Shown piece by piece: positions 1 to 11,251 of a DNA stretch of 13,393 bases (within the stretch, counting starts at the first letter, position 1; each line of letters begins with the position of its first letter). Source of the DNA: a bacterium. GTDB lineage: Bacteria > DYJV01 > JALVYZ01. The stretch is taken from positions 1 through 13,393 of the forward strand of contig JALVYZ010000146.1 of assembly GCA_027037705.1 (NCBI GenBank), in the 5' to 3' direction. The notes beneath the pieces were generated by a model, which saw nothing but the letters and a program-made list of their open reading frames with translations, did not search any database and was not told where the DNA came from. Position numbers and translations under genes: made by a program.

Positions 1-1803
1 ACAATGGCAATTATTCAATTATTACTTGGCAATATAGGTGTTGCTGGTGGTGGAGTTAATGCATTAAGAGGAGAATCAAATGTTCAAGGTTCAACTGATC
101 ATTGTTTATTATGGCACATATTACCAGGTTATTTAAAAACTCCAAGGGCATCTCAGCAAACACTTGAAGCTTATAATAAAAAATATACACCAGTTACTCA
201 TGATCCTATGAGTGCAAATTGGTGGGGGAATTATCCAAAATATTCAGCAAGCTTTCTAAGAAGTATGTTTGGATTAAATGCAGATTTAGATAAATGTTAT
301 GAAATGATGCCAAAAGTTGATGATGATAAAAACTATTCCTGGTTGATTATTTTTGAAGAGATGATAAAAGGCAATATAAAGGGATTTTTTGCATGGGGAC
401 AGAATCCAGCATGTTCTGGAGCAAACTCAAATAGAGTAAGAAAGGCTCTTACAAAACTTGACTGGCTTGTTAATGTAAATCTATTTCATAATGAAACAGG
501 TTCATTCTGGAAAGGTCCTGAAATGGATCCTAAAAAGATTAAGACAGAAGTATTTTTACTTCCATGCGCTATGAGTTTTGAAAAAGAGGGAAGTATTACA
601 AATAGTGGAAGATGGATGCAATGGAGATATAAGGCGATAAATCCTCCTGGAGAAGCTAAACCTGATTCTGAAATTATAAATGAATTATATTTTAGAGTTA
701 AAAAACTTTATGAAAAGGAAGGAGGGGTATATCCTGATCCTATTCTAAAATTAACATGGGATTATGGTCCAAAAGATGAAAAAGGATTTGTTAAAAAAAT
801 AGACACACATTTAATTGCAAAAGAAGTGAATGGTTATTTTTTAAAAGATACATATGTTAAAGGAAAATTTTTTAAAGCAGGAACTCTTGTGCCTTCATTT
901 GCATATTTAAAAGATGATGGTTCAACATCGTCAGGCAATTGGTTATATTGTGGAAGTTATACAGAAAAAGGCAATATGGCTGCACGAAGAGTAAGGATTG
1001 ATAGATCAGGTATAGGTTTATATTCAGAATGGTCATGGTGCTGGCCTGTAAATAGAAGGATTTTATACAATAGAGCAAGCGTAGATGTGAATGGTCAACC
1101 ATGGAACCCAGAAAAACCAGTAATCAGATGGACAGGAAGTAAATGGGTTGGTGATGTGCCAGATGGTGGATGGCCTCCATTATCTTATGGTAAAAAATCA
1201 AGATATGCATTTATTATGAAACCTTCTGGATTTGCACATATTTTTGGTCCAGGAAGAAAAGATGGGCCATTCCCAGAGCACTATGAACCTTTAGAATGCC
1301 CAGTTGAAAAAAATCTCCTCAATCCTTATAAATTAAATCCCGTTGCACCAATGTTAAGTAAGCCTGGTGTAGGCGAGGGTAAAGCAGTATTTAAATCTTG
1401 TGATCCAAGATTCCCTATTGTATGTACAACGTACAGAGTAACAGAACATTGGCAAACAGGGGTATTAACAAGATGGCAGCCATGGTTATTAGAAATGCAA
1501 CCTCAACTTTTTGTTGAAATGAGTGAAGAACTTGCAAAAATGAAAAATATTAAGAATGGAGAAAAGGTAAAAGTGGTTTCAGCAAGAGGTGAAGTTGAAG
1601 CTATAGCAATTGTAACAAAGAGATTTAAACCTTATAAAGTTCAGGGAGCAACTGTACATGTAATTGGATTGCCTTGGTGTTTTGGTTGGGTTCATCCTAA
1701 AAATGGTGGAGATTCAGCAAATATTTTAACTCCAAGTATTGGAGATCCAAATACATTAATTCCTGAAACAAAAGCTTTTATGGCAAATGTTGAAAAACTT
1801 TAA
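1..1803 (+). CDS. Formate dehydrogenase catalytic (alpha) subunit, 5'-truncated by window edge
   Basis: This is the C-terminal part of a molybdopterin-dependent formate dehydrogenase large subunit of the FdnG/FdoG type, which oxidises formate to CO2. The reading frame is open from base 1. The ATG at position 4 is internal, because the residues after it (LLLGNIGVAGGGVNALRGES) match the middle of FdnG-type proteins, which are about 1000 residues long. Some 400 residues are therefore missing, including any Tat signal, the N-terminal [4Fe-4S] motif and the Sec/Cys metal ligand. Seen here are the cofactor-domain segment GQNPACSGAN (about residues 133-142) and, from about residue 470 to the end, the molybdopterin-dinucleotide-binding domain, beginning near YRVTEHWQTG. 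The C-terminus ends in a family-typical NVEKL. The gene is followed by a strong AGGAGG and fdhB. Whether the active site uses selenocysteine cannot be judged from this window. Confidence 0.93.
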   Translation, partial: TMAIIQLLLGNIGVAGGGVNALRGESNVQGSTDHCLLWHILPGYLKTPRASQQTLEAYNKKYTPVTHDPMSANWWGNYPKYSASFLRSMFGLNADLDKCYEMMPKVDDDKNYSWLIIFEEMIKGNIKGFFAWGQNPACSGANSNRVRKALTKLDWLVNVNLFHNETGSFWKGPEMDPKKIKTEVFLLPCAMSFEKEGSITNSGRWMQWRYKAINPPGEAKPDSEIINELYFRVKKLYEKEGGVYPDPILKLTWDYGPKDEKGFVKKIDTHLIAKEVNGYFLKDTYVKGKFFKAGTLVPSFAYLKDDGSTSSGNWLYCGSYTEKGNMAARRVRIDRSGIGLYSEWSWCWPVNRRILYNRASVDVNGQPWNPEKPVIRWTGSKWVGDVPDGGWPPLSYGKKSRYAFIMKPSGFAHIFGPGRKDGPFPEHYEPLECPVEKNLLNPYKLNPVAPMLSKPGVGEGKAVFKSCDPRFPIVCTTYRVTEHWQTGVLTRWQPWLLEMQPQLFVEMSEELAKMKNIKNGEKVKVVSARGEVEAIAIVTKRFKPYKVQGATVHVIGLPWCFGWVHPKNGGDSANILTPSIGDPNTLIPETKAFMANVEKL

Positions 1804-1815
1804 TAGGAGGATAAA

Positions 1816-2595
1816 ATGGCTGTAAGAAAAGGAGTTTTAATAGATATAACAAAATGTATAGGTTGCAGGGCTTGTCAGGTAGCGTGCAAAGAATGGAATG
1901 ATTTACCTGCAGAAAAAACTATAAATAGGGGGAGCTATGAAAATCCCCCTTCCTTAAGTGCTCATACTTGGACAAAAATAAATTTTTATGAGGAGTGGGA
2001 TAAAGAAAAAAATAAGATGATATGGCATTTTAAAAGAAGTGGATGTCATCACTGTACAGATTCTAATTGCCTTGAAGGATGTCCTACTGGTGCAATAAAG
2101 AGAAGTCCATCAGGAATGGTCCATATAGACCAGAATATTTGTATAGGATGTAAAAACTGTATTCAGTTATGTCCATTTGGCATTCCTCATCTTAATCATG
2201 AGACAGGAACAACTGTGAAATGTACAGGATGTTACGACAGAGTTGAAAATGGTCTCCCACCAGCATGTGCAAAAGCTTGTCCAACAGGAGCTTTAACATT
2301 TGGTAATTTAAGTGAATTAAGAGCATTAGCAAATGATAGACTTGTGGAGTTAAGAAAACAAGGTAATTACAGAGCATGTATTTATGGAGATACTCAACTT
2401 GGTGGTCTTGGATTTTTCTATATTTTACAGAATGATCCAGAATTTTATGGATTGCCAAAAAATCCTAAAGTTGTCTCAAAATATTTCTGGAATATTTTAT
2501 CAAACTCATTTATTGCAACAATTGCAGCTGCAGTAATTGGTCTTGGGGCTATATTTACTTTTAGAGATAGGACAAATAATAATAGTGAAAAATGA
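1816..2595 (+). CDS. Formate dehydrogenase iron-sulfur (beta) subunit with C-terminal membrane anchor
   Basis: This 259-residue electron-transfer subunit is of the FdnH/DmsB type. It carries electrons from the molybdenum subunit to the membrane subunit. Four ferredoxin-like cysteine groups are visible: C14/C17/C20/C24, C77/C80/C85/C89, C109/C112/C115/C119 and C136/C139/C151/C155, enough for four [4Fe-4S] clusters. A hydrophobic stretch at about residues 226-248 is a single C-terminal transmembrane helix, as in FdnH. By analogy this suggests that the catalytic dimer faces the periplasm. The start is supported by AGGAGG at 1805-1810, just upstream of ATG 1816 and 12 bases after the alpha-subunit stop, so the two are co-transcribed. 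The protein is shorter than E. coli FdnH (about 294 residues), but no cluster is missing. Confidence 0.93.
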   Translation: MAVRKGVLIDITKCIGCRACQVACKEWNDLPAEKTINRGSYENPPSLSAHTWTKINFYEEWDKEKNKMIWHFKRSGCHHCTDSNCLEGCPTGAIKRSPSGMVHIDQNICIGCKNCIQLCPFGIPHLNHETGTTVKCTGCYDRVENGLPPACAKACPTGALTFGNLSELRALANDRLVELRKQGNYRACIYGDTQLGGLGFFYILQNDPEFYGLPKNPKVVSKYFWNILSNSFIATIAAAVIGLGAIFTFRDRTNNNSEK

Positions 2596-2736: not shown

Positions 2737-3627
2737 ATGGAAGGACAAGTAATTAGTTGGGGTTGGCCAATTATCATATATTTATTTCTTGGTGGTCTTG
2801 CAGGTGGTGCCTACATAATTGCTGCTCTTGCAGATTTATGTGATATAGATGAAGATAAATTGATTGGAAAGATAGGATTTACAGTTGCCTTTATTGGAAT
2901 TGTTATTGGAGCTTTATGTTTAATTAGTGACCTTGGAAGACCTGAAAGGTTTTTAAATATAATTAAAGTATATAAATTCACTTCACCAATGTCTGTTGGA
3001 GTCTGGGGAGTTATTGTGTTTACAGTATTTTCAATTCTTTCAATATTGATGATATTTGGTAAAAGTAAAGATTCAAAAGGAATATGGAAGTTAGGGTATT
3101 ACATTAGTTTAGTAATTCCAAGGAAAGCTGTTAATGCGATTGGATTAACTGTTGGGGTATTTTTAGCAGGATACACTGGAGTGTTATTAACAGAAACTTC
3201 TCGCCCATTCTGGTCTGACACACCTTTTTTAGGGGCTCTATTTTTAGCTTCTGGAGTTTCTACAGCAATAGCATTTATATATTTTTTCTATGGGATGATG
3301 AGAAATGATGAAATTGGTCAAAGAAATAAATATAAGCTTAAACTTGTTGATAATATGGCAATAATTGCTGAAATTGTTATTTTGATTTTTATGTTAATTC
3401 AGTTATCAAATATTGGACATTTGAAATATCTAAAGCATTATACTGCAATGTTCTGGATAGGTGTTGTGGTAGTTGGTCTTATTATCCCTCTTTTATGGAA
3501 TTTTGTTTCCCTTATTGGATATAGAATTCAGGGTAAAAAATTAAAAACAAATTTTATTATTCCAATTTTAATATTAATTGGTGGATTTCTATTAAGATAT
3601 GTGGTAGTAATGGCTGGACAATCATAA
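2737..3627 (+). CDS. NrfD-type (PsrC-like) membrane subunit of the formate dehydrogenase complex
   Basis: This 296-residue polytopic membrane protein has about eight hydrophobic helices. It belongs to the NrfD/polysulfide reductase family, whose members exchange electrons between an FeS partner and the menaquinone/ubiquinone pool without haem. The first helix carries the typical glycine-rich stretch LGGLAGGAYIIAALADL (about residues 18-34), and SDLGRPERF (about 64-72) follows helix 2, as is usual for the family. Its place directly after the alpha and beta genes indicates that it is the membrane anchor and quinone-reactive subunit, used here in place of the four-helix cytochrome b (FdnI) of E. 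coli FDH-N. The start ATG 2737 has a strong AAGGAGG at 2725-2731. The gene lies 141 bases after fdhB, across the octamer repeat arrays, and is followed at once by an intrinsic terminator. Confidence 0.9.
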   Translation: MEGQVISWGWPIIIYLFLGGLAGGAYIIAALADLCDIDEDKLIGKIGFTVAFIGIVIGALCLISDLGRPERFLNIIKVYKFTSPMSVGVWGVIVFTVFSILSILMIFGKSKDSKGIWKLGYYISLVIPRKAVNAIGLTVGVFLAGYTGVLLTETSRPFWSDTPFLGALFLASGVSTAIAFIYFFYGMMRNDEIGQRNKYKLKLVDNMAIIAEIVILIFMLIQLSNIGHLKYLKHYTAMFWIGVVVVGLIIPLLWNFVSLIGYRIQGKKLKTNFIIPILILIGGFLLRYVVVMAGQS

Positions 3628-3679: not shown

Positions 3680-4384
3680 ATGGAGATTTATAAAGATATC
3701 TTAAAATTGAGAGAAGATTTTTTTAAGGATTTTGATTTAGACAAAATAAAAAATTTATTGGATGATACTAAATTTGAAAAACTACCTATTATAGACAATA
3801 TTTCAGATGAAAAAATTTCTGAAATTATAAAAATTATAGAACCAAAAAATATAATTCTTAAGCTTATGGAAAAATATGATTTAAAATTAGATGAAAATTT
3901 TTCTGATTTTGAAGAAAAAATAGTTAAAATATTAGATGGTGAGGAAATAGATATTGATGAAGAAAAATTAAATACTTATGAAATTATTTTTAGAGTTTAT
4001 GGGGTCCCTTTTACAGCAATATGGAAAGCTATTAAAGATAAAATAGATTTGTCCAAATTTGATGAAAATTTTTGTCCAATTTGTGGTGGTTCTTTTGATT
4101 ATGCTTATATAGATGAAGAAGGAAAAAAATTTTTAGTATGTGATTTATGTAGATACCCATGGCGTTATACAAGAGTCAAGTGCCCAATATGTGAAAATGA
4201 AGATCAAAATAAATTATCTTATCTGCAATTTGAAGGAGATTATGAATTTGTTAGAATTTATCAATGTGAAAATTGTAGTGAAAGCCACAAAGTATTGTTG
4301 GTTGATAAGATTAAAAAATATCCATCTGTAGAATTAGCAAACATAGAGACAATTCCTCTTGAATTTGCTATTGATGAAAAATAG
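3680..4384 (+). CDS. fdhE: FdhE-like formate dehydrogenase accessory protein
   Basis: This 234-residue protein resembles FdhE, a cytoplasmic rubredoxin-like maturation factor needed for activity of exported formate dehydrogenases. The C-terminal half carries the family's four CxxC pairs: CPIC (132-135), CDLC (154-157), CPIC (168-171) and CENC (196-199). It also has the linking segment RYPWRYTRVKCPIC. The N-terminal half is Glu/Lys/Ile-rich and predicted helical. At 234 residues it is shorter than E. coli FdhE (about 309), mainly at the N-terminus. A GGAG at 3669-3672 precedes ATG 3680. It sits 52 bases after the membrane-subunit gene, across an intrinsic terminator, which fits lower expression of a catalytic accessory factor relative to the structural subunits. 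No promoter of its own is evident in the short gap. Confidence 0.85.
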   Translation: MEIYKDILKLREDFFKDFDLDKIKNLLDDTKFEKLPIIDNISDEKISEIIKIIEPKNIILKLMEKYDLKLDENFSDFEEKIVKILDGEEIDIDEEKLNTYEIIFRVYGVPFTAIWKAIKDKIDLSKFDENFCPICGGSFDYAYIDEEGKKFLVCDLCRYPWRYTRVKCPICENEDQNKLSYLQFEGDYEFVRIYQCENCSESHKVLLVDKIKKYPSVELANIETIPLEFAIDEK

Positions 4385-4467: not shown

Positions 4468-5439
4468 ATGAAAAAAATTATTGTTATTTTTATTTTAATT
4501 ACAAATTCATTACTATTTTCATCTAATTTAAAACTCAATTCTATATTCCCAGATATCCCATTAAATGGAACTTTTCTAAAAAGTTATGAAAAAAAATATC
4601 TTGGTCTTAAAGAAAATATAAAACAATTTACAATTCCTCAAATAAAAGCAAAATATAAAATTATAGAATTTATAAATGTTTACTGTTTTGCATGTCAAAA
4701 ACAGGCACCAGAATTTAATAAATTCTATAATAATTTAAAATGTAAGCCCGAGGTTAAGTTTATTGGAATAGGTCTTGGAAATTCAAATAGAGAGATAAAA
4801 AATTTTAAGGAAAGATTTAAAATAGATTTTCCAATAGTACCAGATAAAAAGTTTAAGGTATACGAAGCAATTGGGGGGACGAGAACTCCTTTTACGTTGA
4901 TATTAAAGGATAATAGAATAATATATGGACATCTTGGTTTAATTTCAGATTATAAAGAACTTTATGCTGTTTTACTTGATAATAAAAGTTTTTATAAAGT
5001 TATTGCAAAAGAGAAACATAAGCCCAAACCTGTATCAGATAATTTAGTCATTGAAAAAATTAAACCAAAATTTAAAAAAATTACTGACATTAAAAAGTAT
5101 AAAAATTATTACAAAGTTTCTGCAGATGGGAAAATATTTTATGTTGTTGTAGTAAGCTCTTCATCTGTTTGTAATATATGTCATCCTGTACAGTTTATTT
5201 ACATTGTAACTCAAAATGGAAAAATTTATGATTTTATTCCAATTCATATTACAAGAAGATTTAACAAAGAATGGAGCCAGGAAGAAGTAGATAAAATGAG
5301 AAGTAGATTAATTGGTAGAAGTATATTAAAAGAATTAACTTTTAACAAAGATGTTGATGCTGTAACATCAGCAACAATCACATCTTCAATGATATTTTAT
5401 TTTATTAATCAAGCAAAAAAGTTTTTACCAATTAAGTAA
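4468..5439 (+). CDS. Exported thioredoxin (TlpA/ResA-like)-FMN-binding domain fusion protein
   Basis: This 323-residue protein has three parts. Residues 1-19 form a Sec-type signal or anchor (MKK, then a hydrophobic core) with no lipobox cysteine. Residues about 55-175 look like a TlpA/ResA redoxin domain, with the redox pair C73-F-A-C76 and the cis-proline region GTRTP (P141). Residues about 200-320 look like an FMN_bind domain of the NqrC/RnfG/NosR kind, ending in DAVTSATITS (297-306). That fits the motif in which ApbE attaches FMN to a threonine, here probably T303. Unusually, the flavin domain holds CNICH at 235-239, a CxxCH that could bind haem c or be a second thiol pair. It lies 83 bases after fdhE with GGAG at about 4457-4460, so it may share the FDH transcript. 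A periplasmic thiol or flavin electron-transfer role is likely, but partner and substrate are unknown. Confidence 0.75.
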   Translation: MKKIIVIFILITNSLLFSSNLKLNSIFPDIPLNGTFLKSYEKKYLGLKENIKQFTIPQIKAKYKIIEFINVYCFACQKQAPEFNKFYNNLKCKPEVKFIGIGLGNSNREIKNFKERFKIDFPIVPDKKFKVYEAIGGTRTPFTLILKDNRIIYGHLGLISDYKELYAVLLDNKSFYKVIAKEKHKPKPVSDNLVIEKIKPKFKKITDIKKYKNYYKVSADGKIFYVVVVSSSSVCNICHPVQFIYIVTQNGKIYDFIPIHITRRFNKEWSQEEVDKMRSRLIGRSILKELTFNKDVDAVTSATITSSMIFYFINQAKKFLPIK

Positions 5440-7167
5440 TTATCTATAATATATTTCATTATAATGGTTCGTGATTGGATATCTTCTATCCTTACCAAAA
5501 GCCCTTTTAGTTATTTTGGGTCCAACAGGAGCTTGTCGTCGTTTATATTCATTAATATATACAAGACGGATTAGTTTTTTTAAGTCTTTTTCATTTAAAA
5601 AGTCAAAATAATTTAAGTCTTTATCTTCTTCAATAAATAATTTTAAAAATTTATCAAGAAGCGGATAAGGAACCAATGAATCCTCATCTTTCTGGTTTGG
5701 TCTTAATTCTGCACTTGGTGCTCTCTCTATTGTTGAATTTGGAATAATTTCTTTTTTATATTTTTTATTTATAAACTTAGCTATTTTATAAACTAACATT
5801 TTAGGAACATCTTTTAATAAAGCAAATCCACCTGCCATATCACCATAAATAGTTGCATATCCAACTGTTAATTCACTTTTGTTTCCTGTGGTTATAACTA
5901 AATATCCAAATTTATTTGAAAAAGCCATTAAAATATTTCCTCTTATTCTTGCCTGTAGATTCTCTTCTGCTACATTGAAAGGCAGATCTTTAAAATAAGG
6001 TTCAAGCTGATTCAAGTAAGTTTGAAATATATTTGCAATAGGAATTTCATAAAATTCAATTCCTAAATTTTCTGCTAAAATCCTTGCATCAGATTTTGTC
6101 TCTGATGATGTAAAATGAGATGGCATTGAGATCCCTACTACATTTTCTTTACCAAGTGATAGCGTGCATATAGTTGCAGTTAATGCAGAGTCTATTCCGC
6201 CACTTATACCTACTATAACTTTTTTAAATCCATTTTTATGAACATAATCTTTAACTGCGAGTTTTAATGCCTCAAATATTTCTTCCTCTTCTGAATGAAT
6301 GTTAACATTACAGATATTTTTTTTAGGTTTATTCATCTTATAAGGCTTATTAACTTTAATTGCAGCAGTTTTTTTAATTTTATTAAATTTTTCTATTTCA
6401 AATTCAGAATATTCATATTCTTTAAATAATTCTTTAACATTAATGTAAACATCTACAATGTCTTCTTCAAAGCTTTTCCCTTTAGCAATAATTTCATCTC
6501 CCTTTAATACAAAACTATTACCATCAAATATTAATTCATCCTGTCCACCAACAAGATTACAATAAACTAATATACAATTATTTTCTTTTGTATATTTTGA
6601 AAATATTTTTATTCTTTCTTCATGTTTGTTAATATGATATGGAGATGCTGAAATATTAAATATAATATCAGAAAGAAAAAGTTTTTTTGATGCTGTAATT
6701 AAATTATCTTCAACCCAGATATCTTCACAAATGTTAAATGAAAAGTTAATTTTATCCCACCATATTGACTTTATGGAATCTCCTTCTTTAAAATACCTTT
6801 TTTCATCAAAAACACTATAATTAGGTAGATTAATTTTATCATATTGAGATATTATTTTCCCATTTAATATAATACTTAGTCTATTTACGACTTCATCATT
6901 TTTATTAAAATCTGGATGTCCAATTAAGATAAAAGAGTCACTGGGAAATTTATTTAAATTCAATTTTAATGTTTTTTTACAATCTTCTATAAAATGTTTT
7001 TTAAAAAGTAAATCTTCAGGGGGATAACCAGAAATGCTTAATTCAGGAAAAACTATAAAATCACTATCTTTACAATTATTTGCAAAATCAATTATCTTTT
7101 TTATATTATTTTTTAAATCACCAATTATTGAATTTATTTGACATATTGAAACTTTTATATAGTCCAT
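5440..7167 (-). CDS. nadE: Glutamine-dependent NAD+ synthetase
   Basis: This 575-residue cytosolic enzyme makes NAD+ from deamido-NAD+, ATP and glutamine, the last step of NAD synthesis. The N-terminal carbon-nitrogen hydrolase (glutaminase) domain spans about residues 1-270, with the catalytic triad visible as E42 (FPELS), K111 (YDKINLP) and C147 (NICEDIW). The C-terminal synthetase domain begins near residue 295 and carries the PP-loop SGGIDS (322-327), GNKSELTVGY and GDMAGGFALLKDV. Length is normal for the two-domain form. Its ATG shares one base with the oorC stop codon (TAATG), so it is the last gene of the oor operon and is probably translationally coupled. Its stop codon directly abuts that of the convergent thioredoxin-FMN gene, and no terminator hairpin is apparent at the junction. 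Confidence 0.96.
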   Translation of the reverse strand: MDYIKVSICQINSIIGDLKNNIKKIIDFANNCKDSDFIVFPELSISGYPPEDLLFKKHFIEDCKKTLKLNLNKFPSDSFILIGHPDFNKNDEVVNRLSIILNGKIISQYDKINLPNYSVFDEKRYFKEGDSIKSIWWDKINFSFNICEDIWVEDNLITASKKLFLSDIIFNISASPYHINKHEERIKIFSKYTKENNCILVYCNLVGGQDELIFDGNSFVLKGDEIIAKGKSFEEDIVDVYINVKELFKEYEYSEFEIEKFNKIKKTAAIKVNKPYKMNKPKKNICNVNIHSEEEEIFEALKLAVKDYVHKNGFKKVIVGISGGIDSALTATICTLSLGKENVVGISMPSHFTSSETKSDARILAENLGIEFYEIPIANIFQTYLNQLEPYFKDLPFNVAEENLQARIRGNILMAFSNKFGYLVITTGNKSELTVGYATIYGDMAGGFALLKDVPKMLVYKIAKFINKKYKKEIIPNSTIERAPSAELRPNQKDEDSLVPYPLLDKFLKLFIEEDKDLNYFDFLNEKDLKKLIRLVYINEYKRRQAPVGPKITKRAFGKDRRYPITNHYNEIYYR

Positions 7168-7742
7168 TATTCATCAGCAGTAAATTCTTCAGGTTCTTTT
7201 CTATTTTTTAATTCTTTTTTGGCTAGTCTGAATCCTAACTGTAGCGCTTTTTTGTTCTGCTCTATAAAAGCTTCAGGAACTCTTTCCAAAACTGCTTTTG
7301 TTAAACTTTTTCTTGTTACAATTTTTGTAATTTCACATAAAATCCCAAGTGCAACAATATTCGCAAAAACAGGTTTCTTTAATTTTTCTATTGTCATTTT
7401 TGTAATTGGTATTTGATATGCACTTGATGATGGAACATTTGTAATAAATGTAGAATCTACAATTAATATTCCTCCAGGTTTTAGATCATTAAAATATTTA
7501 TTGCAGGCTTCCTGGCTCATAGCTAATAATATGTCAGGATTTGATGTTTTAGGATAATAAATTTCCCTATCTGAGATAATAACTTCAGCTTTTGATGCAC
7601 CGCCTCTTGCTTCAGGTCCATAACTTTGAGATTGAACAACATTTTTACCATCTAAAATTGCAGCTTCTGCTAAAATTATTCCTGCTGTAATCAGCCCTTG
7701 TCCACCTGTGCCTGCTAATCTTATCTCTACTCTTTCCTTCAT
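7167..7742 (-). CDS. oorC: 2-oxoacid:ferredoxin oxidoreductase, gamma subunit (OorC-like)
   Basis: This 191-residue subunit is the gamma component of a 2-oxoacid:ferredoxin/acceptor oxidoreductase, which oxidatively decarboxylates a 2-oxoacid to acyl-CoA and CO2. It shows the gamma-family N-terminal signature GTGGQG (11-16) and YGPEARGG (41-48). Length matches OorC/KorC of about 186 residues. The ATG overlaps the oorB stop by 4 bases (ATGA), and its own stop shares a base with the nadE start. Both junctions suggest translational coupling. In this operon architecture the best assignment is 2-oxoglutarate oxidoreductase, but the gamma subunit itself does not define the substrate. Confidence 0.92.
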   Translation of the reverse strand: MKERVEIRLAGTGGQGLITAGIILAEAAILDGKNVVQSQSYGPEARGGASKAEVIISDREIYYPKTSNPDILLAMSQEACNKYFNDLKPGGILIVDSTFITNVPSSSAYQIPITKMTIEKLKKPVFANIVALGILCEITKIVTRKSLTKAVLERVPEAFIEQNKKALQLGFRLAKKELKNRKEPEEFTADE

Positions 7743-8587
7743 TTCTTTGTCCCTCTTTTTGCTTTTTTCATTCTTTGACGAATAATTTCTTCATATTGCT
7801 CACAATATTCAGGTAATTCTTTTTCAACTAAAATACCTGTAGTAATTTTTCCTTCTAATTCTTCAGGTTTCATATTTTTTGCTTTTTCAATTGGGACAGC
7901 AATCTCTTTTTCCCATTTTACCATTGTAACAGGATCTGGCATTTTATTCCTTCTGCCAAAAGTTGTTGGACAATGAGTTATAACTTCCACTACTGAAAAA
8001 CCTTTGTGTAAAAGAGCTTTTTCAATTAAATTTGTAAGTTGTCTTACATGATAGGTAGTTGAACGTGCCACAAATGTAGCACCAGCTGTTTTAACAAGTT
8101 CAGCTAAATCAAATGGTCTCTCTATGTTTCCATGGGTTGCAGTAGTAGCTTTTGCATGATATGGTGTTGTTGGACTGTATTGACCTCCTGTCATTCCATA
8201 AATTGAATTATTATAAATTATTGCTGTCATATCAATGTTTCTTCTACAAGCATGTATTAAATGGTTCCCACCTATAGCAGATGCATCTCCATCTCCCATA
8301 ACAACAATTACATGCAATGAAGGTTTTGCCAATTTTAATCCAGTTGCAAAAGCTACAGCTCTACCATGTGTAGTGTGAAGTGTATTAAAGTCAACATACA
8401 CAGGGGTCCTACCTGAACAGCCAATTCCTGAAATCATTGCGATTTCATCTTTTTTTAATCCAATAGCATCTATAGCAAGTAAAATTGCATGTAAAATTGT
8501 TCCATTTCCACAACCAGGACACCATAGATGAGGAAATTTTTTGTCATGTCTTAAATATTTTTCAAGTAATTGTTTATTGGAAAGCAT
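7739..8587 (-). CDS. oorB: 2-oxoacid:ferredoxin oxidoreductase, beta subunit (thiamine-PP-binding, OorB-like)
   Basis: This 282-residue subunit binds thiamine diphosphate and a [4Fe-4S] cluster and forms the reaction centre with the alpha subunit. Likely cluster ligands are C23 and C26 (WCPGCGNG), C57 (GIGCSGR) and C206 (THCPTTF). The thiamine-PP motif starts at GDG (98-100) and ends near NN (126-127), followed by YGMTGGQ (130-136). Length equals that of OorB of Campylobacter/Helicobacter (about 281). AGGAG overlaps the oorA stop region just ahead of the start (TAAGGAGATAAATATG, read on the minus strand), so ribosomes can pass directly from oorA. The gene overlaps oorC by 4 bases. Confidence 0.94.
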   Translation of the reverse strand: MLSNKQLLEKYLRHDKKFPHLWCPGCGNGTILHAILLAIDAIGLKKDEIAMISGIGCSGRTPVYVDFNTLHTTHGRAVAFATGLKLAKPSLHVIVVMGDGDASAIGGNHLIHACRRNIDMTAIIYNNSIYGMTGGQYSPTTPYHAKATTATHGNIERPFDLAELVKTAGATFVARSTTYHVRQLTNLIEKALLHKGFSVVEVITHCPTTFGRRNKMPDPVTMVKWEKEIAVPIEKAKNMKPEELEGKITTGILVEKELPEYCEQYEEIIRQRMKKAKRGTKK

Positions 8588-8597
8588 ATTTATCTCC

Positions 8598-9740
8598 TTA
8601 AAATTTCTTGATTTCTTTTATTATTTCATCAGGTGTTATTAGCTCACCATATATTTTGTTAAATTTTTTAACAGGTACTTTTCTTTCAGTTACCCTAACT
8701 ACTTCTCTGTAAATTTGACCTAAATTCATTTCAGGCACTAAAAATCCTTTTATTCCAAAATTTAACACTTTATCAAATGCAAATCTTGGAAAAGGGAATA
8801 AAGTGTTTAATTCAAGTAGACCAACCTTTATCCCTTCTTTTCTTAATTCTTCAATTGCAGATAAAGAAGATAATACTACACTGCCATAAGCAACAATACA
8901 AAAATCTGCATCTTCAAGATAATGGTATTTTACCATACATATTTCGTGAAAACCTTTTTCAATTTTTTCAAAAATTCTTCTTAATCCTCTTTCTACTTCA
9001 TCAGGTTTTGATGTTGGAAACCCTTTTTCATCATGAACAAGTCCTGTAACATGATACCTATATCCATCACCAAAAGCAGCCATTGGGGGGACACCAGTTA
9101 AATTATTTTCATATGGTACATACCATTCTGGTGGTACTGTTGGTTTTATTCTTTCTAAAACTTCAATTTCATCCTTTTTAGGTAGTAATACTCTTGCTCT
9201 CATATGAGCGACAACTTCATCTAAAAGTAAAATAACAGGGTTTCTATATTTTTCAGAAAAATTTATAGCTTTAATTGTCAGAAGATAAGCTTGATATACA
9301 TTTGATGCTGAAAGAACAATTATTGGATGATCTCCATGCGTTCCCCATCTTGCTTGCATAACATCTCCTTGGGAGGGAGATGTAGGCAGTCCTGTTGAAG
9401 GTCCTCCTCGCATAACATTTACAATAACAATTGGAATTTCTGCAATACATGCAAATCCAATATTTTCCTGCATTAAAGAGAAACCAGGCCCAGATGTGGC
9501 TGTTAAAGATTTAACTCCACCAATTGATGCACCAATAATTGCAGCAATTGAGCCAATTTCATCTTCCATTTGAATAAATTTGCCGCCTACTTCAGGTAAT
9601 TTATTTGATAAAATTTCAGCAATTTCTGTTGCAGGGGTAATAGGGTATCCTGCAAAAAATCTTACTCCGCCATCTATTGCACCTTGTGCAACTGCTTCGT
9701 TACCTTGCATTAATTTATAATTATTTTTTTTTGAAGGCAT
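8598..9740 (-). CDS. oorA: 2-oxoacid:ferredoxin oxidoreductase, alpha subunit (OorA-like)
   Basis: This 380-residue subunit carries the pyrimidine-binding and transketolase C-terminal-like domains of 2-oxoacid:ferredoxin oxidoreductases. Hallmarks are GYPITPATEI (31-40), an MEDEIGSIAAIIGAS segment that includes the glutamate expected to activate the thiamine ring, and TATSGPGFSLM. The downstream part (AYGSVV onward) fits the C-terminal domain. The separate alpha, beta, gamma and delta chains in the order D-A-B-C, and the lengths, match OorDABC/KorDABC 2-oxoglutarate oxidoreductase. Branched-chain 2-oxoacid enzymes share the fold, so 2-oxoglutarate as substrate is inferred. It starts 3 bases after the oorD stop, and its AGGAG lies inside the end of oorD. 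Confidence 0.93.
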   Translation of the reverse strand: MPSKKNNYKLMQGNEAVAQGAIDGGVRFFAGYPITPATEIAEILSNKLPEVGGKFIQMEDEIGSIAAIIGASIGGVKSLTATSGPGFSLMQENIGFACIAEIPIVIVNVMRGGPSTGLPTSPSQGDVMQARWGTHGDHPIIVLSASNVYQAYLLTIKAINFSEKYRNPVILLLDEVVAHMRARVLLPKKDEIEVLERIKPTVPPEWYVPYENNLTGVPPMAAFGDGYRYHVTGLVHDEKGFPTSKPDEVERGLRRIFEKIEKGFHEICMVKYHYLEDADFCIVAYGSVVLSSLSAIEELRKEGIKVGLLELNTLFPFPRFAFDKVLNFGIKGFLVPEMNLGQIYREVVRVTERKVPVKKFNKIYGELITPDEIIKEIKKF

Positions 9741-9743
9741 TTC

Positions 9744-10010
9744 TTACTCCTCTTCTTTATTTACAGTAATTGCAAAGTCTGGACATCTTAATTCACACTG
9801 CATACACTGTATACATTTTTCTGGATGAACAGGCTCTGATTTCCCATTTTCATCAAAATCTAAAACCCCTTGAGGGCAGAAAGCTATACATATTCCACAT
9901 CCTTTACACCATGCTTTAAAAACTGTTACAGGAGATTTCTTTTCTTTTGTAATTACCCCAGCTGTTCTTGCATTAATAACTTTTTTCTTTTTTGGCTGTG
10001 TATTTTCCAT
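9744..10010 (-). CDS. oorD: 2-oxoacid:ferredoxin oxidoreductase, delta (ferredoxin-like) subunit (OorD-like)
   Basis: This 88-residue protein has two [4Fe-4S] motifs, C35/C38/C41/C45 and C66/C69/C72/C76, each followed by proline (CP) as in bacterial ferredoxins. It is the small electron-transfer subunit of the oxidoreductase and passes electrons to soluble ferredoxin or another acceptor. The first 25 residues are basic and lack cysteines. It is the first gene of the five-gene operon. The start ATG at 10010 has GGAG at 10019-10022 on the minus strand, 8 bases upstream. Confidence 0.92.
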   Translation of the reverse strand: MENTQPKKKKVINARTAGVITKEKKSPVTVFKAWCKGCGICIAFCPQGVLDFDENGKSEPVHPEKCIQCMQCELRCPDFAITVNKEEE

Positions 10011-10159: not shown

Positions 10160-11251
10160 TTAGAGAGAAAGTGCATGAGCATAAGCATTTTCAGAAATCT
10201 TATGCCATTTCTCGATTTGATTAAAGAATTTCATGTAATCTGTATATACTTTTTTACTGAAACCAGTTTTGTCTTTTTCAACTAATTCTTCAATTGCCTC
10301 TTTTGCATGTTTCTTTAATGATTTTAATACATCATCAGGAAATTTTAATAATTGGACATGATGTTCTTTAACTAATTTTTCAAGATAGTATTCATTTTTA
10401 GCTTCAAATTCAGATAACATCCAGATATTTGAACGAGCTGCTGCAGTTGTAATAATTGCTTGTAAATCTTTTGGTAATTTATCCCAAGCTTTTTTATTAA
10501 TCATTATTTCTAAAACTGTTCCAGGCTCATGCCATCCTGGATAGTAATAATATTTTGCAGCTTTATAAAATCCCATCAAATAATCGTGATATGGACCAAC
10601 CCATTCAGTTGCATCAATAACACCTCTTTCAAGGTTAGTATAAATCTCTCCACCAGCAACTAACACTGCTGTAGCACCAGCTTTTGCAATAACTTTCCCT
10701 CCAAGACCTGGAATTCTCATTTTTAAACCTTTATAATCATCTATGGAGTTAATTTTTTTATTAAACCATCCACCCATCTGGACACCTGTATTCCCAGCTG
10801 GGAATGGAACAAGACCAAAGCTAGCGTATAGCTCTTTCCATAATTTCCATCCATTACCACCATAAAACCATGCATTAACTTCTTGTGCATTCATGCCAAA
10901 TGGAACTGCTGCAAAAAATTGTGCTGCTGGAGCTTTTCCTGCCCAGTAGTATGAAGCAGAATGTCCCATTTCTACATTACCACTTCTAACTGCATCAAAT
11001 ACACCGAGAGCTGGAACTAATTCACCACCTCCATAAACTTGAATTTTCATTCTTCCGTCACTTAATTCTTCAACCCATTTTGCAAATTTGTCAGCTCCCT
11101 CACCTAATACAGGAAAGTGAGGTGGCCATGTAGTTACCATTTTCCAGAAATATTTTTTCTTTGCTATAACATAAGGAGCTTTTGCTGCTGTTGCAGCTGT
11201 TGCTGCAGCAACTCCCACACCAACTTTCTTAATGAAATCTCTTCTTTTCAT
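10160..11251 (-). CDS. TRAP transporter substrate-binding protein, TakP-like (2-oxoacid type), Tat-exported
   Basis: This 363-residue periplasmic receptor belongs to the DctP/TakP family, which hands organic acids to a TRAP membrane carrier. It opens with a twin-arginine signal (KRRDFIKK, then an Ala-rich core to about residue 30). The mature part is typical: GGGELVPALGVFDAVRSGNV (74-93), the Q158 segment GVQMGGWF, R179 in LKMRIPG (the family arginine that usually pairs with the ligand carboxylate), ERGVIDATEWVGP with E216/W217, and YYYYPGWHEPG (235-244). The length and the E-W and GWHEPG features recall TakP, which binds pyruvate and other 2-oxoacids with a metal ion. The ligand is an inference. 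GGGGG at 11257-11261 precedes the start. No DctQ or DctM genes are present, so the receptor is orphaned or its partners lie elsewhere. It is transcribed alone, with a terminator behind it. Confidence 0.9.
   Translation of the reverse strand: MKRRDFIKKVGVGVAAATAATAAKAPYVIAKKKYFWKMVTTWPPHFPVLGEGADKFAKWVEELSDGRMKIQVYGGGELVPALGVFDAVRSGNVEMGHSASYYWAGKAPAAQFFAAVPFGMNAQEVNAWFYGGNGWKLWKELYASFGLVPFPAGNTGVQMGGWFNKKINSIDDYKGLKMRIPGLGGKVIAKAGATAVLVAGGEIYTNLERGVIDATEWVGPYHDYLMGFYKAAKYYYYPGWHEPGTVLEIMINKKAWDKLPKDLQAIITTAAARSNIWMLSEFEAKNEYYLEKLVKEHHVQLLKFPDDVLKSLKKHAKEAIEELVEKDKTGFSKKVYTDYMKFFNQIEKWHKISENAYAHALSL

Follow-up and report, generated by a model that had tools for sequence, protein, structure and literature searches.

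A probably exported thioredoxin fused to a predicted flavin-carrier domain with its own cysteine pair, encoded beside formate dehydrogenase genes

Periplasmic thioredoxins of the ResA/TlpA/CcmG type, of which ResA and CcmG are reducing proteins, normally receive their electrons from CcdA/DsbD. More generally, electrons are taken to enter periplasmic thiol systems mainly through DsbD/CcdA and to leave them through DsbB/VKOR. QSOX holds a thioredoxin CxxC, a flavin-side CxxC and a flavin, carried by an Erv/ALR FAD domain, in one chain. In holo-NqrC of V. harveyi, FMN is attached to Thr229 at the start of the last helix and its isoalloxazine ring is clamped between loop 6-7 (Leu149, Trp150) and the ETPGLG loop (PMC4348036), while in SaFMN3-D2 it is Tyr14, in the equivalent first loop, that stacks against the ring (PMC10339131). 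The formate dehydrogenase FdhAB of D. vulgaris is switched by a surface disulfide, C845-C872, being slow and O2-stable when oxidised and active when reduced, and no thioredoxin partner is named in the accessible parts of these reports (PMC13397495, PMC11134731). Here we describe a gene whose product, a TlpA-FMN protein, is a new combination of known domains; in the limited open literature, we found no description of TlpA-FMN fusions or of a formate dehydrogenase (FDH) with TlpA. As it joins an exported thioredoxin to an FMN-carrier domain with a cysteine pair predicted at the flavin, the protein probably moves electrons between flavin and disulfides outside the cell membrane, and perhaps switches the neighbouring FDH on and off.

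Gene order and domains of the TlpA-FMN protein

The window, i.e. the whole 13,393-nucleotide stretch of bacterial DNA analysed here, begins with FDH genes on the forward strand, and a gap of 83 bp separates the fdhE-like gene from the TlpA-FMN gene:

1..1803, + strand: C-terminal 600 residues of the FDH alpha subunit, the gene running off the window (TIGR01553, 3.8e-244; D. gigas 1h0h, 3.8e-250)
1816..2595, + strand: FDH iron-sulfur beta subunit (TIGR01582, 5.9e-62)
2737..3627, + strand: NrfD-type membrane subunit of the FDH (PF03916, 1.7e-41)
3680..4384, + strand: FdhE-like rubredoxin-type FDH accessory protein, short and below the cut-off (TIGR01562, 2.8e-11)
4468..5439, + strand: TlpA-FMN thiol/flavin protein gene, an intact ORF of 323 aa, product probably exported
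5440-7167: NadE, convergent with the TlpA-FMN gene

An ATG start preceded by GGAG was read for the ORF at 4468-5439. The preliminary description of this DNA had pointed to an exported chain carrying a CFAC thioredoxin, CNICH and DAVTSATITS near fdhE and the FDH genes, and all of these parts were located. Downstream of NadE lies a four-gene 2-oxoacid:ferredoxin oxidoreductase cluster (gamma, beta, alpha and ferredoxin-type; 7167-10010, - strand), and two homologues of the TlpA-FMN gene (L038 and L040) likewise adjoin genes of this type. Reading of the sequence only further suggested a TRAP-type solute-binding protein (10160-11251, - strand) and a fragment of a B-family DNA polymerase cut by the contig end (11844-13391, - strand). 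Neither a plasmid search nor PHROGs gave a match. Within the TlpA-FMN protein, the following features were recognised:

4468..4527, + strand: predicted Sec-type signal peptide without lipobox, residues 1 to ~20 (called from sequence alone; the model has a helix at 2-16)
4522..4989, + strand: ResA/TlpA-type thioredoxin domain, residues 19-174 (profile, PDB sequence search and fold match)
4684..4695, + strand: thioredoxin active-site pair C73-F-A-C76 (each cysteine in 94 of the 95 members with letters there)
4885..4890, + strand: T140-P141, the cis-Pro position of the thioredoxin fold (P141 in 96/96)
5032..5436, + strand: C-terminal RnfG/NqrC-fold domain, residues 189-323 (predicted model, pLDDT 92.1; Z of 10.4 to 9eri_G and 8.6 to 4xa7)
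5170..5184, + strand: C235-N-I-C238-H239, the second thiol pair, in the loop that precedes strand 241-248 (conservation and predicted model)
5356..5385, + strand: flavinylation-like motif D297-A-V-T-S-A-T303-I-T-S306 (D297 in 96/96, S/T at 303 in 96/96)
5374..5376, + strand: T303, the predicted site of FMN attachment, where the last helix begins; probable equivalent of V. harveyi NqrC Thr229 (PMC4348036)

The N-terminal half is a ResA/TlpA-type thioredoxin. The AhpC-TSA profile matched it well above its cut-off (6e-11, 42.8 bits vs 26), in line with the TlpA/ResA-like domain of the preliminary description, and ResA was the best match both by sequence (3e-8 in the PDB search) and by Foldseek, with a fold match at a Z of ~16.

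The C-terminal half was less readily classified by profile. With the Pfam FMN_bind profile (PF04205), the protein scored 18.5 bits (E=0.0033), below the curated cut-off of 22, and at E<=0.01 this profile matched only three of 26 homologues. A profile search of the C-terminal alignment against the PDB reached RnfG only at E=0.45, while hhalign aligned it colinearly but weakly with E. coli RsxG (P 0.0018). Pfam and NCBIfam profiles were not enough by themselves to judge this domain. Because thioredoxin matches filled the fold search of the full-length model, the C-terminal domain was modelled alone from 17 sequences, giving a mean pLDDT of 92.1 with a drop at its CxxC loop. The best 12 structural matches among the Foldseek candidates were all RnfG or NqrC (Z of 10.4 to 7.9), as were 16 of the 17 best matches, the exception being a Borrelia periplasmic protein. 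Alignments with RnfG/NqrC ran from end to end of the domain with Z scores of 10.4 to 6.7 (9eri_G, 10.4; 7zc6_G, 9.9; 4xhf_A, 8.7). Given these matches, and since T303 opens the last helix as Thr229 does in NqrC, the model identifies the domain as a divergent form of the covalent-FMN carrier fold, one missed by the Pfam profile. The divergence is also seen in detail: the glycine of the [S/T]GA[S/T] motif is a serine in the window protein (Gly in 17/97 members), and the ETPGLG flavin loop of NqrC is absent from it, with a conserved stretch around K263 and N266 in its place. Thus, the FMN_bind domain first proposed for this region fell short in the profile search and was recovered at the level of predicted fold, and together with the AhpC-TSA match the model bears out the proposed thioredoxin-FMN fusion in one chain.

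Cysteine pairs and flavin motif across the homologues

Homologues were collected from a genome-contig scan, the relatives of the window genome, one small phylum and 395 sampled Thermodesulfobacteriota genomes (domain present in 53), and the searches in the phyla of G059, G372 and G215 were of limited size. In total, we obtained 97 members at 87 loci from several phyla, mostly ~30-38% identical to the window protein, and their relationships were drawn from a quick tree in which the joining of the window protein with the L063 member is a long-branch pairing. Both CxxC pairs and the flavin motif were retained across the 97 homologues with few exceptions. At one locus (L135), a paralogue (6287-7438, + strand) lacks the second cysteine of both pairs (CLTS and CDLG) and keeps the FMN motif, beside an intact copy of the gene at 7481-8557. 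Although a single case, this joint loss fits what would be expected if the two pairs work together. The L149 member has lost the first thioredoxin cysteine.

In the predicted model, C235-N-I-C238-H lies between strands 222-231 and 241-248. Residues 1-89 of SaFMN3-D2 correspond to model residues 35-131 in the fold alignment, which puts Tyr14 at approximately model residue 49, within the C-x-x-C. The same loop aligns with loop 6-7 of NqrC, so that in this apo model the cysteines would occupy the place of two elements that both pack against flavin. Hence, the second CxxC is predicted to replace the isoalloxazine-packing loop of the solved relatives, in agreement with the earlier suggestion of a second thiol pair in the flavin domain. 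Its first cysteine is found in all 97 members and its second in 96, whereas the histidine is found in only 86/97, such that of the CxxCH originally highlighted it is the two cysteines that are conserved.

The gene for ApbE, the flavin transferase, directly adjoins the family gene on the same strand at 11 loci, with frames overlapping by 4-11 bp in eight, and Pfam ApbE was confirmed for three of these products. In the quick tree, every apbE-adjacent member belongs to the window protein's clade. ApbE was found in 24 of the 26 genomes with full-length members, the exceptions being the window's own genome and another that is 68% complete. In G024, where only TlpA-only relatives were seen, there was no ApbE. 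Since the two exceptions are incomplete or fragmented, we consider flavinylation likely in the window organism as well.

The surroundings of the family genes vary. Three tandem copies are found at L035:5447-9179 and L036:6251-10020, and at L033, L035, L036, L037 and L039 the family genes precede a conserved aminotransferase gene and a gene for a 146-aa protein without Pfam match. Longer members of ~560-620 aa carry an inserted cysteine-poor domain (L034:6765-8450, L038:1103-2788, L040:1-1433, L044, L046 and L108:9775-11484); their genes frequently stand divergent to that of a normal member, and several of the loci have a small additional thioredoxin gene alongside. Six loci (L062, L064, L065, L147, L148, L149) share a conserved trio of a pentahaem c554-type cytochrome, the family gene and a DAHP synthase. 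Genes for superoxide reductase, rubrerythrin, flavodiiron protein or thioredoxin reductase are found near the family genes at L063, L066, L067, L108 and L121, which suggests a role in oxidative stress there.

A proposed flavin-thiol relay and its possible link to formate dehydrogenase

We propose, with moderate confidence, that the protein is a periplasmic flavin-coupled thioredoxin in which a flavin, a CxxC and a TlpA domain form a thiol relay in one exported chain. ApbE would attach FMN to T303 of the RnfG/NqrC-fold domain. As the loop that sandwiches the isoalloxazine ring appears to be rebuilt as C235-x-x-C238, flavin and dithiol could exchange electrons, and this pair would in turn exchange with the C73/C76 pair of the TlpA domain, which belongs to the same polypeptide and would reduce, or less likely oxidise, client disulfides. 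The FMN would thereby couple one-electron carriers, such as cytochromes or membrane donors, to two-electron thiol chemistry. Regarding the source of electrons, CcdA/DsbD is encoded in the window's own genome, as in most others, but three genomes of one family (97-100% complete) lack it, and in that family the gene stands between those for a pentahaem cytochrome and DAHP synthase. Because DsbD/CcdA is absent from these three tested genomes, the thioredoxin part would not be fed by DsbD in that family, and a cytochrome-flavin electron route is a natural guess.

In FDH operons, the client could be the allosteric disulfide of the alpha subunit, for which both cysteines were found in the window by sequence alignment:

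1297..1299, + strand: FDH alpha C433, aligned with C845 of the redox-switch disulfide of D. vulgaris FdhA
1399..1401, + strand: FDH alpha C467, aligned with C872 of the same disulfide

In the D. vulgaris enzyme, reduction of this disulfide brings activity, and oxidation gives protection against O2. The equivalent of FdhA Met405 lies beyond the window, and E. coli FdnG has neither switch cysteine. Among 60 sampled FDHs (L155-L214), 41 have both cysteines, 18 neither and one a single one, a near all-or-none pattern that supports their acting as a pair across Thermodesulfobacteriota. The window FDH alpha and every family-linked FDH carry both; when linkage to TlpA-only relatives is counted as well, 10/10 linked FDHs have both, vs 36/55 of the unlinked ones (Fisher p=0.03, ignoring descent), which points to a weak link between TlpA-type genes and the switch cysteines. 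The full fusion itself was seen at none of the 60 sampled FDH loci. The disulfide is thus a plausible client, and the idea that the protein protects the FDH has gained a concrete target.

Several other readings have to be weighed against this relay. The CNICH sequence is formally a haem c site, the histidine is found in most members and a cytochrome c assembly protein (PF01578) is encoded in 27/27 genomes, so that a haem-flavin-thiol protein, an option raised in the preliminary description, might be envisaged. However, 11/97 members have E, T, K, D or S instead of H239, through about four independent changes on the quick tree, while both cysteines stay. No distal His or Met ligand is conserved elsewhere in the C-terminal domain, the motif coincides with the flavin-packing loop of RnfG-type domains, and one member without the histidine (CDACE, L068) sits in an apbE operon. 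As the histidine is not kept and no distal ligand is conserved, we rejected haem c binding, which we consider highly improbable; the kept cysteine pairs, the variable histidine and the joint cysteine loss described above fit two cooperating thiol pairs. The flavin itself could be missing in this organism if apbE had been lost, in which case the C-terminal domain would only hold the second thiol pair of a two-stage relay fed by CcdA/DsbD, which its genome encodes. As the main reservation about our reading, ApbE was not found in this genome (92.8% complete, 496 contigs), nor does any other FMN_bind protein pass there. Yet the window protein retains an intact motif, the acceptor is invariably S/T in the members compared, the assembly is 7% incomplete and fragmented, and the window protein belongs to the clade of all the apbE-adjacent members, and we regard an unflavinylated relay as unlikely. 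The relay could also run the other way, as a QSOX-like sulfhydryl oxidase that forms disulfides by passing electrons from clients through TlpA, the flavin-side CxxC and FMN to cytochromes, quinones or O2. Its architecture of thioredoxin, CxxC and flavin mirrors QSOX, reduced SaFMN3, another covalent-FMN protein, reacts with O2 (PMC10339131), the pentahaem cytochromes are possible acceptors, and genes for superoxide reductase, rubrerythrin or flavodiiron protein lie near some loci. Nevertheless, FDH operons would gain little from permanent oxidation, and the hosts are in many cases probably anaerobic. As ResA and CcmG are the nearest matches to the thioredoxin half, we favour the reducing direction and regard an oxidase as unlikely. 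A flavin-linked disulfide reductase or oxidase remains the best reading of the protein first put forward as a possible flavin-driven disulfide reductase, with reduction as the direction we infer.

It may also be that the FDH adjacency is incidental and that the protein acts as a thiol reductase of the periplasm at large, with apocytochrome c or oxidised envelope proteins among its conceivable substrates. The family occurs in more settings than FDH operons: 80/87 loci are not near FDH, and contexts are as diverse as apbE alone, pentahaem cytochrome with DAHP synthase, and superoxide reductase or rubrerythrin. On the other hand, FDH alpha, FdhE or FdhD is encoded within five genes at 7/87 loci vs ~0.6 expected by a rough count, i.e. 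about ten times chance, and the linkage accounts for six changes on the quick tree. FDH operons also contain or adjoin genes for TlpA-only relatives (L161, L187, L196, L203), in the order FDHa-FDHb-TlpA-peroxiredoxin-FdhE at L161 and with FdhE and TlpA overlapping at L187, and the switch cysteines are present in all linked FDHs. We therefore give incidental adjacency real weight while judging it somewhat improbable, and the FDH linkage proposed from this one locus proved real and recurrent but a minority context rather than the rule.

Comparison with known systems

The N-terminal half shares its fold, CxxC, cis-Pro and predicted export with the periplasmic ResA/TlpA/CcmG thioredoxins and differs from them by the flavin-carrier domain joined to it, which brings a thiol pair of its own. 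With RnfG/NqrC (FMN_bind, PF04205), the C-terminal half shares the whole-domain fold, the motif Asp, the predicted Ser/Thr acceptor at the start of the last helix and, in relatives, the apbE operons. Unlike them, the family scores below the profile cut-off, usually has the SGAT glycine replaced, lacks the ETPGLG loop and a membrane complex, and carries a CxxC in the predicted flavin-packing loop. As the domain scores below the Pfam cut-off, surveys based on the FMN_bind profile would miss this family. A coupling of flavinylated with thioredoxin-like proteins outside the cytosol has likewise been envisaged for the ApbE/DsbD/thioredoxin/DUF3570/DUF4266 hybrid clusters, where they are separate proteins with another flavin domain; a TlpA-FMN fusion with CxxC was not found in the accessible part of that study (Meheust et al., 2021; PMC8238504). 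The likeness to QSOX lies in the logic of the mechanism only, since the flavin folds are unrelated (Erv/ALR FAD vs RnfG/NqrC), the cofactor is FAD vs a predicted covalent FMN, and the window protein is bacterial and probably periplasmic.

A bolder and rather doubtful generalisation is that these proteins are widespread oxidoreductases that couple flavin and thiol chemistry in the periplasm: covalent FMN, a flavin-side CxxC and the TlpA thioredoxin would together relay electrons, independently of DsbD, between cytochromes or quinones and extracytoplasmic disulfides, and a protein of this class would be the redox partner of the FDH disulfide switch. If true, a thioredoxin bearing a covalent-flavin domain with its own dithiol would add a third route by which electrons enter or leave periplasmic thiol systems. 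With the FdhAB switch of D. vulgaris (C845-C872), the locus shares both cysteines, in the window FDH alpha as in all family-linked FDHs. The tie of this switch to the TlpA-FMN protein is one that we infer, and it makes the protein a candidate redox partner, of relevance to how CO2-reducing enzymes survive oxygen.
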